Shown here: piece by piece, positions 2,991-7,329 of the stretch | Layout: each line of letters begins with the position of its first letter | Position numbering within the stretch: the stretch's first letter is position 1 | DNA from: Acidobacteriota bacterium | GTDB lineage: Bacteria; Acidobacteriota; Terriglobia; Terriglobales; Acidobacteriaceae | Direction of reading: 5' to 3' | Assembly (NCBI GenBank): GCA_003225055.1 | Contig: QIAU01000164.1 | Coordinates: forward strand, 1 to 42,243 | DNA length: 42,243 nucleotides | Notes under the pieces: model-generated | The model's input: the letters and a program-made list of their open reading frames with translations, nothing else | The model's database searches: none | Told to the model about the DNA's origin: nothing | Translations under genes and position numbers: made by a program

Positions 2991-3314
2991 AGAGTGATTT
3001 TAGCGCGACGAAACTCGACAATCGAAGCGACCTGAGCTTGCTTCACCGGCTACCTGTGACCGCTTTTCGGTTGAAGAGACTCCTCAGATACGGTAGTTTT
3101 ACAGTCAGTTAACCCCCCAGAGCCAAGCACATTTCCTGAACCTCCGTCTTGGCGCTCAAAGATGAGTTTTTATTGTCTTGACCGGTAGCACAAAAGGCGC
3201 GAGTCGCAAGGGTAAGTTCTACGCCACGGGCTCAGCCGCGGGCGTGATGATTCGGGCTGTCTCCCGAAGCCAAGAACTGATCCTTGCCACTGCCGGATTG
3301 GTTAGGAGCCAGCC
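2991..3314 (+). promoter_or_regulatory. shared divergent control region of two two-component operons
   Basis: This 324-base gap separates the leftward kinase/regulator operon from the rightward porin operon, so it must hold both promoters. I found no gene and no convincing -35/-10 pair. A small hairpin, CTCA-AAGA-TGAG followed by TTTTTA, lies near 3158-3175. AGGAGCC lies just before the porin ATG and serves as its ribosome site. No known riboswitch consensus was recognised. Confidence 0.45.
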
Positions 3315-4622
3315 ATGAAATCCTCGATTGTCCCGCTCACCAGGACGACGCTGAAGGTCACGGGCCGGATCTTTAAGGTGCTTCCCATGCTGCTCGGAGT
3401 TCTGCTTAGCACCCGGGTTGTCCGGGCGCAGCAAGCACCAGATCCGGCGGACCAAGATAAGCAAACCATACGCATGTTGCTCGAGCGAGTTGAGCAACTG
3501 GAGGCCAGGGTCACTCAATTGGAGGCCGCCAGGCAAGGTCGACCGGCGGTCGCGCCGACCCTGGTGACTCAGCAAGCCAGTACCCCTGCTGAGCCTGAAA
3601 CCGAGACCCAGGCGGAGCAGCCTTCCGAGCCGGAAAGAATGGATCTCAGCAAGACGCTGCTGCGCATGCGCGGCTTCGGGGACATCACTTTGCATGGCGA
3701 TAACCACAAAGGTGACACCACCTCTTTCAGCCTGGGACAGCTGAACTTGTTTGTTACCTCCGACGTTTCCGAGAAGTTCAAGTTCCTGACGGAAATTGTG
3801 TTTGAGGCAGGACCAGACAATGCGGTCGGTGTGGATGTGGAGCGCATGCTCCTCGAATATTCGCCCAGCGACTATTTCAATCTCGCCGTAGGCCGATACC
3901 ATACCGCGATCGGCTACTACAACACCGCCTATCACCACAGCACCTGGTTCCAGACGACCACCGGCCGGCCCTTCCTTTTTGACTTCGAAGACAAGGGAGG
4001 ACCGTTGCCCATCCACAACGTCGGAGTCTCCGCCTCCGGCCTGATACCATCCGGGCGTCTAGGCTTGCACTACGTGGCCGAAGTCGGCAATGGACGCACC
4101 TCGCGTTCTCCGGCCAACGAACCGGTGCAAAACCTTGTAGATGAGAACAACCACAAAGCGTTCAACCTTGCGTTTTTCGCGCGCCCCGAGTCGGTTCGCG
4201 GGCTGCAAGCCGGCTTCTCGGTCTATCGCGATGTGCTGAGCCCCGCCAATTTGCCAAGAATTGGTGAAACGATCCTGGCTGCTCATGCCGTGTTCGTGCG
4301 TCCGAAATTCGAGTGGCTGAACGAGGCGCTGGTCATCCGGCACGCGCCGTTTGGGCTGTCGCATGTCTTCGAGACGCCGGGATTCTATACCCAGCTCTCC
4401 AAACAGTTCGGTTCCTACCGGCCTTACTTCCGCTATCAATACATGAACGAGTCCAATCGAGAGCCGGTTTTCCCCGACATCGGCCTGCGCCACGGTCCTT
4501 CGGTGGGACTGCGGTATGACGCAAGCGAGTCGGTTGCCGTGAAGCTGCAATACGACTACACGCTATTGCGCCGGCAAGAAGCGGTTAATGGGCTAGCTCT
4601 CCAGGTCGGGTTTACCTTCTAG
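3315..4622 (+). CDS. outer-membrane porin with N-terminal coiled coil (OprP-like)
   Basis: A 435-residue protein. A basic N-terminus and a hydrophobic signal segment end near residue 40 (RVVRAQ). A short coiled coil follows (MLLERVEQLEARVTQLEAA, about 54-72), then a Pro/Glu-rich linker, then a long beta-rich region from about residue 115 to a terminal phenylalanine (LALQVGFTF). Barrel motifs such as LGQLNLFVTSDVSEKFKF and LAVGRYHTAIGYYN resemble phosphate-selective porin O/P-type proteins, and the coiled coil resembles the peptidoglycan-anchoring stalks of such porins. It is the first gene of a four-gene unit; the next start codon abuts its stop. Likely role: outer-membrane uptake of the solute that the downstream binding protein recognises. 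The substrate is not proven. Confidence 0.82.
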   Translation: MKSSIVPLTRTTLKVTGRIFKVLPMLLGVLLSTRVVRAQQAPDPADQDKQTIRMLLERVEQLEARVTQLEAARQGRPAVAPTLVTQQASTPAEPETETQAEQPSEPERMDLSKTLLRMRGFGDITLHGDNHKGDTTSFSLGQLNLFVTSDVSEKFKFLTEIVFEAGPDNAVGVDVERMLLEYSPSDYFNLAVGRYHTAIGYYNTAYHHSTWFQTTTGRPFLFDFEDKGGPLPIHNVGVSASGLIPSGRLGLHYVAEVGNGRTSRSPANEPVQNLVDENNHKAFNLAFFARPESVRGLQAGFSVYRDVLSPANLPRIGETILAAHAVFVRPKFEWLNEALVIRHAPFGLSHVFETPGFYTQLSKQFGSYRPYFRYQYMNESNREPVFPDIGLRHGPSVGLRYDASESVAVKLQYDYTLLRRQEAVNGLALQVGFTF

Positions 4623-5165
4623 GTGAGTCATAAAATCGAATTCGTGACCGGGGTTGTGCTCATGCTGGTGGCGGCGGTAGTGTGGTTGAAACCAGCGCCG
4701 GGCTGGAGCTTTCGAGGAGCTGGATATGCGCAGACCACCTCCGGGCAGAGTCTGGCCATCATCGTGAACCAGTCGAATCCGGTGGAAAACCTCTCTTTGA
4801 CGGAGTTGCGTCGGATCTTCCTGGGTGAGCGCAGCCACTGGCCCAACGGGCGTCGTATTACCCTGGTGATCATGCCGCCGGGGGAACCGGAACGGGAAGC
4901 GATCCTCCGCGAGGTGTGTCGCATGAACGAGAAGGACTATAACAATCATTTTCTGCACGGCCTGTTTACCGGCGAGGTTTTTGCTTCGCCCAAAACCCTG
5001 TCGACGCCCGTCGGGGTGCGCAAGTTCGTGTTTAATGTTCCGGGAGCGATCGGCTACGTGCGCACCGCCGACGTGGATGACTCGGTCAAGGTGCTGCGAA
5101 TCGACGGGCTTCTGCCTGGCGATAAGGACTACAAGATCCCGATGCAGGCCCGCCTGGCAAAATAG
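4623..5165 (+). CDS. PstS-like periplasmic phosphate/oxyanion-binding protein (short)
   Basis: A 180-residue protein with an N-terminal signal or anchor (LMLVAAVVWLKPAPG) and one PBP-like domain. The motifs NPVENLSLTELRRIFLGE, WPNGRRITLV and VPGAIGYV are characteristic of the PstS-type (PBP_like_2) family. It is much shorter than full PstS (about 320 residues), so it may be a single-lobe binder or a sensor accessory. GTG at 4623 follows the porin TAG without a gap. Only 2 bases separate it from the next kinase gene. No ABC permease or ATPase accompanies it, so it is unlikely to feed a classical Pst transporter here. Presenting ligand to the kinase is my inference. Confidence 0.78.
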   Translation: MSHKIEFVTGVVLMLVAAVVWLKPAPGWSFRGAGYAQTTSGQSLAIIVNQSNPVENLSLTELRRIFLGERSHWPNGRRITLVIMPPGEPEREAILREVCRMNEKDYNNHFLHGLFTGEVFASPKTLSTPVGVRKFVFNVPGAIGYVRTADVDDSVKVLRIDGLLPGDKDYKIPMQARLAK

Positions 5166-5167
5166 TT

Positions 5168-6652
5168 ATGAGCGAGAAACCCAGCGACGCGGCAGATCGA
5201 ACCAGGAACGAGGCGGTGCCGTTTACCCGCGTCCTGTCGAACCTGGTTTCGCGTAACAGTTACACGCTGCTGCTGTTATTGGTCTTCAGTGTCGAAGTGG
5301 GGGTAGGCATTTTCGTGATACGCGATCTACGTACCGCCAACGTCGAAGCGCAGAGAATGTATGTGGGGTCGGTGCTCGGGCTGCGCAGGATTGGAGAACT
5401 GCAGTACCAGGCTCAGGAGACTCGCCGCAGCACCCTCTATGCGTTGACAACCAACGACAGCAATCTCCAGGTCGAATATGCCGACCAGTCCCGCGAGGCC
5501 GATGGCCGTGTCACCGATGGCATTCGGGAGTATCTGGAACAGGCACGAATTCCGCGAGAAGTAGAGATTGGCCGGCGTCTCCAGCTCGACTGGTCCGCAT
5601 ATCTCCGGGTCCGGGATGAGGTCTTGGCCTCCATTCTCGAAGGCAGCACGCGAGAGGCGGTGCAATTCGATCTGACCGGAGGCGTTCCTTCGTTCGAACG
5701 CGTCCGTCAGGACCTCGAGGAGGTCAAACGGCTCTACGACGAGCAAGCTTCCCAGCGGCTCGCGATCGTAGCCGGGTCTTCCCACCGGTCCGTGGCCAGG
5801 CTCATTGCGGTTCTCGGCTTCACTTTGCTTTTTGCCAGCGCCTCGATCTGGGCCATTCAACGAAGCAAAATGATGAGCGAAGTGCAACTCGCCAAGTTGC
5901 AGATGGATTTTGTGGCTTCCGTGTCCCACGAATTACGCACGCCCTTGGCGGTAATCGGTTCGGCTGCCGATAATATTGCGGATGGGGTGGTGGAGGGGAA
6001 GGAACAACTGACAAGGTATGGCGTGGTGATCAGGAACCAAACCCGGCAGATTACCGAGCTGGTCAACGAGATTCTGCTTTTCGCCTCCACCAAGGAAAGG
6101 GAGATCCGCTATTATCGGCGCCCCGTAAAAGTTCAGCAGATCGTGGAATCGGTAATGGAAAACACTTCGGAACTGGCGCGCGCCTCCGGCTTCGTAATCG
6201 AGTGCCACGTCGACCCAGAATTGCCTTACGTCATGGCGGATGCAGCGGCTCTTTCCCAATGCTTGCAGAACCTGATTGTGAATGCGGTAAAGTACAGCGG
6301 GGAGAGCCGTTGGATCTCGGTTCGCGCCGCACTGGACTATGCGCATGGCCGAAGTCGAAAAGAAATTCGCATCAGCGTTCAGGATCGCGGGATTGGCATC
6401 GCCAGCTCAGAATTGCCTCACGTTTTCGAGCCGTTTTACCGCAGTCCGGCAGTTAGCGCTTCGCAGATTCACGGGACCGGTTTGGGATTGCCTCTGGCCA
6501 AAAACATTGCCGAAGCCATGGGAGGAACACTCTCGGTCGAAAGTGAACTGGGCGTTGGCAGCGTTTTCACTCTCCATCTTCCCGTAACTGAGAAAGCTCA
6601 GTTCGAGATGGCGGCTGCTGCTCCCGGGCTGGATCCACTCGAAAAATCATGA
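5168..6652 (+). CDS. sensor histidine kinase with periplasmic helical sensor domain
   Basis: A 494-residue membrane kinase. TM1 is at about residues 31-52 and TM2 at about 208-230. The roughly 155-residue periplasmic domain between them is helical and charge-rich, resembling four-helix-bundle sensors of the chemoreceptor type. The HisKA domain has H254 (SVSHELRTPLAVIGS). The HATPase domain has the N box (NLIVNAVKY), G1 (DRGIGIA) and G2 (GTGLGLPLAKNI). It lies between the PstS-like gene and an OmpR regulator whose ATG overlaps its stop (ATGA). The operon suggests that it reads the state of the binding protein or porin substrate and phosphorylates that regulator. Confidence 0.92.
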   Translation: MSEKPSDAADRTRNEAVPFTRVLSNLVSRNSYTLLLLLVFSVEVGVGIFVIRDLRTANVEAQRMYVGSVLGLRRIGELQYQAQETRRSTLYALTTNDSNLQVEYADQSREADGRVTDGIREYLEQARIPREVEIGRRLQLDWSAYLRVRDEVLASILEGSTREAVQFDLTGGVPSFERVRQDLEEVKRLYDEQASQRLAIVAGSSHRSVARLIAVLGFTLLFASASIWAIQRSKMMSEVQLAKLQMDFVASVSHELRTPLAVIGSAADNIADGVVEGKEQLTRYGVVIRNQTRQITELVNEILLFASTKEREIRYYRRPVKVQQIVESVMENTSELARASGFVIECHVDPELPYVMADAAALSQCLQNLIVNAVKYSGESRWISVRAALDYAHGRSRKEIRISVQDRGIGIASSELPHVFEPFYRSPAVSASQIHGTGLGLPLAKNIAEAMGGTLSVESELGVGSVFTLHLPVTEKAQFEMAAAAPGLDPLEKS

Positions 6653-7329
6653 ATGAGAATATTTTGCTCGTAGAAGACGAAGAAGCCTTGCGGATGACGT
6701 TGACGGACCGCCTGCGCAGCGAAGGCTACGTGGTCGACTTTGCCGGCGATGGTGAACAAGGATTCGACAAGGCAACACGTTTACCTTTTGATTTGATCAT
6801 CCTGGATGTCATGCTGCCGTTGCGCAACGGCTTCGATCTCTGCCGCGACATCCGGCAAGCGGGCTTGGCCACGCCCATTCTCCTGCTCACGGCGCGCGGC
6901 CAGACAGTCGACAAGGTGGTCGGCCTCAAACTCGGTGCCGACGACTACGTCACCAAGCCTTTCGACACTCTTGAGCTCATGGCCCGTATCGAAGCGCTGT
7001 TGCGCCGTTTGCCCGCCCGAGCCGGCCAGGGCCTTTTCCAGTTTGGACCCGTTCGAATCGACGTGCGTGGGACCAAGGTTACGCGGGAGGGTAAGCCGGT
7101 TTATCTGTCGGCCCGCGAGTTTCAGCTCCTGCGCTATTTTGCCGAACACGCGGGGGCGACTCTTTCTCGTGACGACATCCTGCGGGAGGTATGGGGCTAC
7201 GATGCAGGAACCTATACCCGCACCGTCGATGTGCACGTGGCCGGCCTGCGCCAGAAGTTAGAAAAGGACCCCAAAAACCCTGAACTGATCCTCACTGTGC
7301 CCGGACTCGGCTACCGGTTCGAGGGGTGA
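6649..7329 (+). CDS. OmpR/PhoB-family response regulator
   Basis: A 226-residue regulator. The receiver domain (1-118) has acidic residues E9/D10, phospho-acceptor D53 (IILDVMLPLRNG) and K in VTKPFD. The winged-helix domain (about 130-224) has LSAREFQLLRYF, TVDVHVAGLRQKLE and VPGLGYRF. The start overlaps the end of the kinase gene by 4 bases, giving translational coupling. It closes the porin/PBP/kinase/regulator unit and most likely controls that operon and further uptake genes. It differs clearly from the regulator at 1333-2088 in linker and receiver sequence, so the two systems are not a recent duplication. Confidence 0.93.
   Translation: MNENILLVEDEEALRMTLTDRLRSEGYVVDFAGDGEQGFDKATRLPFDLIILDVMLPLRNGFDLCRDIRQAGLATPILLLTARGQTVDKVVGLKLGADDYVTKPFDTLELMARIEALLRRLPARAGQGLFQFGPVRIDVRGTKVTREGKPVYLSAREFQLLRYFAEHAGATLSRDDILREVWGYDAGTYTRTVDVHVAGLRQKLEKDPKNPELILTVPGLGYRFEG

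Follow-up and report, generated by a model that had tools for sequence, protein, structure and literature searches.

Outer-membrane phosphate porins of the OprP/OprO kind go with PhoBR, and in RcsF and FecA–FecR an outer-membrane barrel is linked to an inner-membrane signal protein across the periplasm. NspS–MbaA and LuxP–LuxQ are reportedly receptor pairs activated by solute-binding proteins (SBPs), and, to our knowledge, the known receptors of this kind use ordinary SBPs. Chemoreceptors, kinases, and diguanylate cyclases are all among the targets activated by SBPs, and 10 of the 11 characterized SBP–kinase couples are gene neighbours (PMC11113362). PstS carrying phosphate activates CtpL in Pseudomonas aeruginosa chemotaxis (PMC4926252). 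Here, we describe a four-gene cassette at positions 3315–7329 of a 42,243-nucleotide stretch (contig QIAU01000164.1, positions 1 to 42,243; referred to as the window) of a soil-type Acidobacteriota bacterium of the Acidobacteriaceae (GCA_003225055.1). It encodes, all on the + strand, a porin, a PstS-like protein, a histidine kinase, and an OmpR-type regulator. We regard it as somewhat probable that the cassette represents one form of a modular unit, in which the porin and the PstS-like protein, a half-sized periplasmic binding protein (half-PBP), form the input pair for an adjoining membrane receptor.

The porin gene (P1; 3315..4622, + strand) encodes 435 aa comprising a leader, a helix, and a 16-strand barrel, with a weak PF07396 match. 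The half-PBP gene (P2; 4623..5165, +) starts with GTG and encodes a single-lobe PstS-like protein of 180 aa with a weak PBP_like_2 match. It is followed by the sensor histidine kinase (5168..6652, +; 494 aa; 4HB_MCP_1 at residues 38–196, HisKA at 246–307, and HATPase_c at 358–474) and an OmpR/PhoB-type response regulator (6649..7329, +; 226 aa; Response_reg and Trans_reg_C by Pfam). The gene order and the spacings of 0, 2, and −4 bases that were described in the earlier note were borne out by the open reading frame coordinates and the Pfam domains. The same note saw no ABC permease by the PstS-like protein, and this agreed with the genome of origin, where the only two pstC-model matches were located on another contig (C220).

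The neighbourhood of close homologues was inspected at 28 named loci, which came from one scan and belonged to Acidobacteriota plus two Verrucomicrobiota (loci are denoted by L numbers). A P1 porin lay upstream on the same strand in all 28, and the gene set is not due to chance. The porin was split into two frames at L043, L044, and L046 and was about 600 bp off at L053 and L055. A receptor adjoined the pair at 26 of the named loci, the other two (L044 and L045) ending at contig ends; in the window, P2 and the kinase are adjacent genes in the manner of an SBP–receptor pair. The kinase of the window type, which has a four-helix-bundle (4HB) input domain, was present at 13 of the 28, being accompanied by its regulator at L031–L034, L036–L042, and L056 and placed at a contig end at L046. 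The other named partners were Ser/Thr kinases at seven loci (L035, L043, and L048–L052; partial at L051) and as a broken copy at L047, PAS kinases (L053 and L055), hybrid kinases (L054 and L057), and a GGDEF–EAL protein (L058).

These counts divide the proposal that uptake pore, binder, and sensor are made as one unit. The porin and the half-PBP are constant, and the position of P2 next to a porin held at every named locus (28/28), whereas the window kinase type followed at only 13 of them and the kinase and regulator are one of several partners. The expected co-occurrence of the four genes in relatives was likewise seen in part: they stood in order at 12 of the 28 named loci, with a 13th cut, but the exact set was found at none of the 26 P2 loci from other relatives (L062–L087). 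The four-gene order with a different kinase was observed at L055 and L128.

Six named genomes carry both a window-type pair and a second pair. A Ser/Thr kinase with one transmembrane (TM) helix and propeller-like repeats (L049:1600-4374 and relatives) adjoins a second porin/half-PBP pair in several genomes, and the genome of origin is among those with such a kinase by its second pair (L059). One TM helix was identified in each of three Ser/Thr kinases checked. Pairs lacking a histidine kinase were at first considered orphans, but this view was abandoned for most close homologues, which have an adjoining Ser/Thr kinase.

For the wider Acidobacteriota, 109 loci were fetched from relatives and from a 297-genome sample of the phylum, comprising the own pst operon and 108 loci with one P2 match each; two weak full-length-like matches (G052 and G060) were left out. 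The 108 matches comprised 83 single-lobe proteins (fewer than 40 residues beyond the matched lobe, several frames such as L123 and L157 being over-long at the start), 21 full-length proteins, three fusions to TonB_C, and one tandem double lobe. Both pstC and pstA were within 5 kb of 20 of the 21 full-length genes versus none of the 83 single-lobe genes (Fisher p 1.6e-20), and a P1 porin adjoined none of the 21 versus 45 of the 83 (p 1.9e-6); these p-values are too small owing to related genomes, and some stretches stop at contig ends, but the split is clean. Thus, P2 homologues that would usually sit beside pst permeases, the finding named in advance as fatal to the proposal, were not what we saw; the homologues of the small protein were associated with a porin and with sensors instead. 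A single locus (L158) had a pstB-like ATPase match 3.2 kb away.

By manual reading of the loci, a receptor adjoined 32 of the 45 porin-linked pairs; among these, L071 is a 4HB–HAMP protein without a recognized output, a small opposite frame intervenes at L131, and L129, L134, and L185 rest on a kinase profile without Pfam. A histidine-kinase gene was within 300 bp of 12 of the 45 pairs, with about three expected from the density farther out. One of the 45, L070, was retained since its single frame matches both profiles. This porin–PBP fusion (L029/L070) was rejected as Rosetta-stone evidence: the frame leads from a corrupted end of the porin into a new Met-leader of the PBP, and the fusion is taken as a probable assembly frameshift.

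Other single-lobe arrangements were observed in the same sample. Fusions of a PstS lobe with a TonB C-terminal domain occur at L086:5361-6053, L159:5177-6028, and L171:5306-6190, of which the L086 fusion adjoins a P1-profile porin, and L161:5521-6357 encodes a 278-aa protein with two tandem single-lobe matches. A distant single-lobe group without P1 (L061, L073, L077, L078, and L083) has a KDVALISNK-like start; an ammonium transporter–CBS gene is nearby at L077 and L083, and large kinases are nearby at L061, L078, and L083.

Besides the window-type kinase, the partners of the pair included hybrid kinases, chemoreceptors, GGDEF/EAL proteins, a SpoIIE phosphatase, a nucleotide cyclase, and Ser/Thr kinases. 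In a rapidly built tree of the 65 P2 domains with labelled partners, the eight partner labels, three of which are histidine-kinase forms, required at least 17 changes versus 40.5 in shuffles, and therefore partners have been both swapped and inherited. The rows with the window partner type fell on one side of a branch with a support of 87, and the Ser/Thr-kinase-linked rows were adjacent to them; support in the tree was modest, with several long-branch rows. Six rows had no detected P1 (L124, L154, L175, L181, L186, and L205), and two labels were taken from the start of a 4HB domain at a contig end (L046) and from the kinase profile alone (L185). As some partners are encoded on the opposite strand (for example, L048, L052, L066, L067, L121, L123, L143, L212, and L213), the association is one of adjacency and more than co-transcription. 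Because relatives adjoin several different sensor kinds, the pair has the look of a plug-in cartridge for sensing, not of a transporter part.

The association extended to proteobacterial plasmids. A distant single-lobe query found 20 plasmid records, all of which were inspected; two were unannotated, and some were near copies. A P1-family porin stood beside P2 in 18 of the 20 (exceptions, L145 and L215), and no pstC/pstA profile matches were found in the 20 loci. Receptors were beside P2 at 15 loci, one of them without a porin, and consisted of methyl-accepting chemotaxis proteins (L141, L143, L144, L146, L212, L213, L215 with one gene between, L216, and L221), GGDEF/EAL proteins (L138, L139, L147, and L220), and hybrid kinases (L218 and L219). 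Although 13 of the 20 plasmid half-proteins are annotated "phosphate ABC transporter substrate-binding protein", their neighbourhood gives this no support. On two Alteromonas plasmids (L140 and L214), the half-PBP/porin pair adjoins a type IV CRISPR (csf) locus.

Several observations weigh against the input-pair reading. No receptor was found by 13 of the 45 porin-linked pairs (L064, L065, L069, L070, L133, L136, L137, L162, L165, L168, L176, L193, and L211) or at five of the 20 plasmid P2 genes (L140, L142, L145, L214, and L217). Another 38 of the 83 single-lobe proteins had no P1 porin found adjoining; such loci were near ammonium transporters (L077 and L083), TPR proteins (L076, L082, and L087), or PilZ and a hybrid kinase with PAS/GAF inputs by Pfam (L073), and the single-lobe loci without P1 may represent a different guild. 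Some partners have inputs other than 4HB, namely Cache, CHASE8, a nine-TM form, or, in Ser/Thr kinases, propeller or TPR regions, so P2 would have to offer several docking surfaces. The usual clamshell cannot be built from one lobe. Gene adjacency of an SBP and a kinase does not always reflect a functional link either: the two neighbouring cases tested in PMC11113362 showed no interaction.

The receptor-less pairs also suit an explanation by uptake, in which the porin and P2 work together to capture nutrients, the neighbouring regulators merely controlling their expression. The chemoreceptors, GGDEF/EAL proteins, SpoIIE phosphatase, cyclase, and Ser/Thr kinases found as partners are not direct transcription regulators, and pstC/pstA were absent from the stretches of all 83 single-lobe and 20 plasmid loci. 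We consider uptake unlikely, despite the resemblance of the porin fold to OprP/OprO described below.

P2 was predicted with high confidence as a single lobe. The predicted local distance difference test (pLDDT) score was 94–98 per ten-residue block over residues 41–170, and the folded lobe spans residues 41–179 (4743..5159, +) as judged from pLDDT and from alignment to residues 76–257 of E. coli PstS. In structure comparison, for which a Foldseek search was also run, the best matches were PstS-type proteins over one part only; the top match was 1twy_B (Z 18.7, 1.6 Å over 122 residues, chain residues 102–239), and E. coli PstS 76–257 gave Z of about 13. We take the matched portion to be lobe 2 from the anatomy of PstS, and lobe 1 to be missing from P2, which has lobe 2 alone in place of the two-lobe clamshell. 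PBP_like_2 (PF12849) scored 21.3 bits, under the cut-off of 27. The SGT of PstS lobe 2 contacts phosphate. In P2, the aligned stretch reads MPPGEPER (residues 84–91; 4872..4895, +), and SGT occurred in the aligned three columns in none of 28 sequences, L055 having an SGT two columns off the aligned position. Since SGT is not kept, PstS-like phosphate binding by P2 is doubtful. The description of P2 as PstS-like and about half the normal size was accurate as to size, and its meaning is refined here to one lobe, without lobe 1 and SGT.

A decayed PstS, truncated and transmitted together with the porin, could also present a single lobe and a lost SGT, but the lobe persists across three phyla, the 28 aligned sequences all share W73 and G141, the fold is confident, and a hydrophobic leader is present at residues 4–22 (hydropathy scan). 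We therefore find decay highly improbable. Another conserved feature is the motif FVFNVPGAIGYV at residues 135–146 (5025..5060, +). P2 is probably exported to the periplasm and does not appear to be a transport component. The suggestion in the earlier note that it serves as a co-receptor is reasonable, but because lobe 1 and the phosphate-site SGT are missing, a ligand-presenting role is unproven, and P2 could relay the state of the porin instead of presenting a ligand.

The porin model (mean pLDDT 78.2) is an OprP-type barrel of 16 strands preceded by a helix at residues 44–74 (3444..3536, +), which is probably a periplasmic coiled coil. The nearest structures were OprP (Z 27.1; 3.6 Å over 300) and OprO (Z 27.0), at 13–14% identity; other 16-strand porins scored Z 23–26, and Porin_O_P (PF07396) gave 14.6 bits, under the cut-off of 20.9. 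Residues 196–234 (3900..4016, +), between model strands 189–195 and 235–244, are conserved and probably form the constriction loop, with H196, Y201, T204, H207, W211, Q213, T214, R218, P219, F224, G228, and P232 invariant or nearly so in the porin alignment (A2). With the window porin as the query, two P1-family porins were found in the genome of origin, both adjoining a P2. Thirteen P1-family porins passed E 1e-20, in 10 of 61 genomes, and all 13 adjoin a P2; as the A2 profile derives from porins that adjoin P2, this only shows that no P2-less porin passed that threshold.

Such features bear on a relay, in which P2 carries no solute but touches the periplasmic side of the porin and reports its assembly or occupancy to the receptor, a task that RcsF and FecA–FecR perform by different means. 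The constancy of the porin–P2 pair, the missing lobe 1 and aligned SGT, the helix and linker preceding the barrel, and the three lobe–TonB_C fusions, of which L086 adjoins a P1 porin, are consistent with this. Against it, the contact between P2 and the porin is conjectural, the fusions are few (3 of 108 P2 matches), and the conserved porin loop also fits plain solute passage; we regard the relay as possible but less than probable. A bolder version is rather doubtful: the porin itself would be the receptor, altered by the passage or binding of solute, and the half-PBP would carry its state across the periplasm to various inner-membrane outputs, namely histidine kinases, chemoreceptors, cyclic-di-GMP enzymes, the SpoIIE phosphatase, the nucleotide cyclase, and Ser/Thr kinases. 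The pair would then be a general signalling cartridge from porin to inner membrane in Acidobacteriota, Verrucomicrobiota, and Pseudomonadota.

On the receptor side, the kinase is a 4HB-type sensor with an input domain at residues 38–196 (5279..5755, +; PF12729, 50.9 bits versus a cut-off of 27) between two TM helices (33–51 and 212–230), followed by HisKA and HATPase_c. The periplasmic domain had been placed at residues 53–207, which is close given these helices, called by a simple hydropathy scan. The TM helices were about 146–163 residues apart in 19 of the 38 receptors checked, spanning kinases, chemoreceptors, SpoIIE, a cyclase, and a GGDEF–EAL protein; the remainder had shorter or Cache-sized inputs, with one having nine TM segments and the three Ser/Thr kinases one TM helix. 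The 4HB assignments beyond the close group rest on Pfam, as our own 4HB profile was too narrow (one match). For comparison, Trg, Tar, Tap, and Tsr, all activated by periplasmic binding proteins, have 4HB domains of 150–160 residues (PMC4926252).

If the porin and P2 are an input pair for the kinase, a solute would enter via the porin, and P2, solute-bound or solute-shaped, would dock on the periplasmic domain of the kinase. Docking would alter kinase activity, and the kinase would then phosphorylate the regulator, changing transcription. As P2 is a single lobe, the receptor may complete the site with a half of its own, or P2 may relay the porin state. Passage of solute through the porin and docking of P2 are suggested by genomic linkage and fold, from which the whole mechanism is inferred; the cassette itself is real, conserved, and wider than first noted.

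The cassette is divergent from a second kinase/OmpR-type regulator pair (1333–2990), which is 324 bp upstream; the intergenic region (2991..3314, strand not assigned) is presumed to be a promoter region. In 13 upstream regions, no shared promoter motif was found, as the top 8-mers occurred in four and 30 shuffles yielded three or four. Because the 8-mers do not exceed the shuffles, no claim of autoregulation is made.

The cassette resembles PhoBR–OprP/OprO in its OprP-like barrel and PhoB-like regulator and differs in the 4HB sensor input and in a binding protein without lobe 1 and SGT. The likeness to RcsF and FecA–FecR lies in the trans-envelope link of a barrel, and the protein families differ. 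As in PstS–CtpL, a periplasmic PstS-family protein would feed a receptor whose ligand-binding domain is helical; unlike in the cassette, the PstS of that system binds phosphate tightly and also serves a transporter (PMC4926252). P2 has one lobe and no adjoining pst genes, and its unit includes a porin. The SBP-activated receptors of PMC11113362 likewise have a binding-protein gene adjoining the sensor and include several receptor types, and the dedicated porin and single lobe are particular to the cassette relative to those in the consulted literature. No unit of porin, single-lobe PstS, and receptor was found among the matches listed in open literature, subscription papers being mostly outside the search, and the consulted portions of PMC9602780, PMC9796306, and PMC5585712 describe none; this is weak evidence of novelty.

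The logic of SBP-activated receptors is thus already known, and the departures here are the half binding protein and the dedicated porin. If the input-pair reading is true, half-sized proteins that commonly carry the annotation "phosphate ABC transporter substrate-binding protein" would be subunits for sensing instead of transport. A porin next to a single lobe would then flag the input side of many receptors without a known signal, including chemoreceptors, cyclic-di-GMP enzymes, Ser/Thr kinases, and two-component kinases, and the family would offer a natural swap experiment on the way in which a single periplasmic subunit can drive several outputs.

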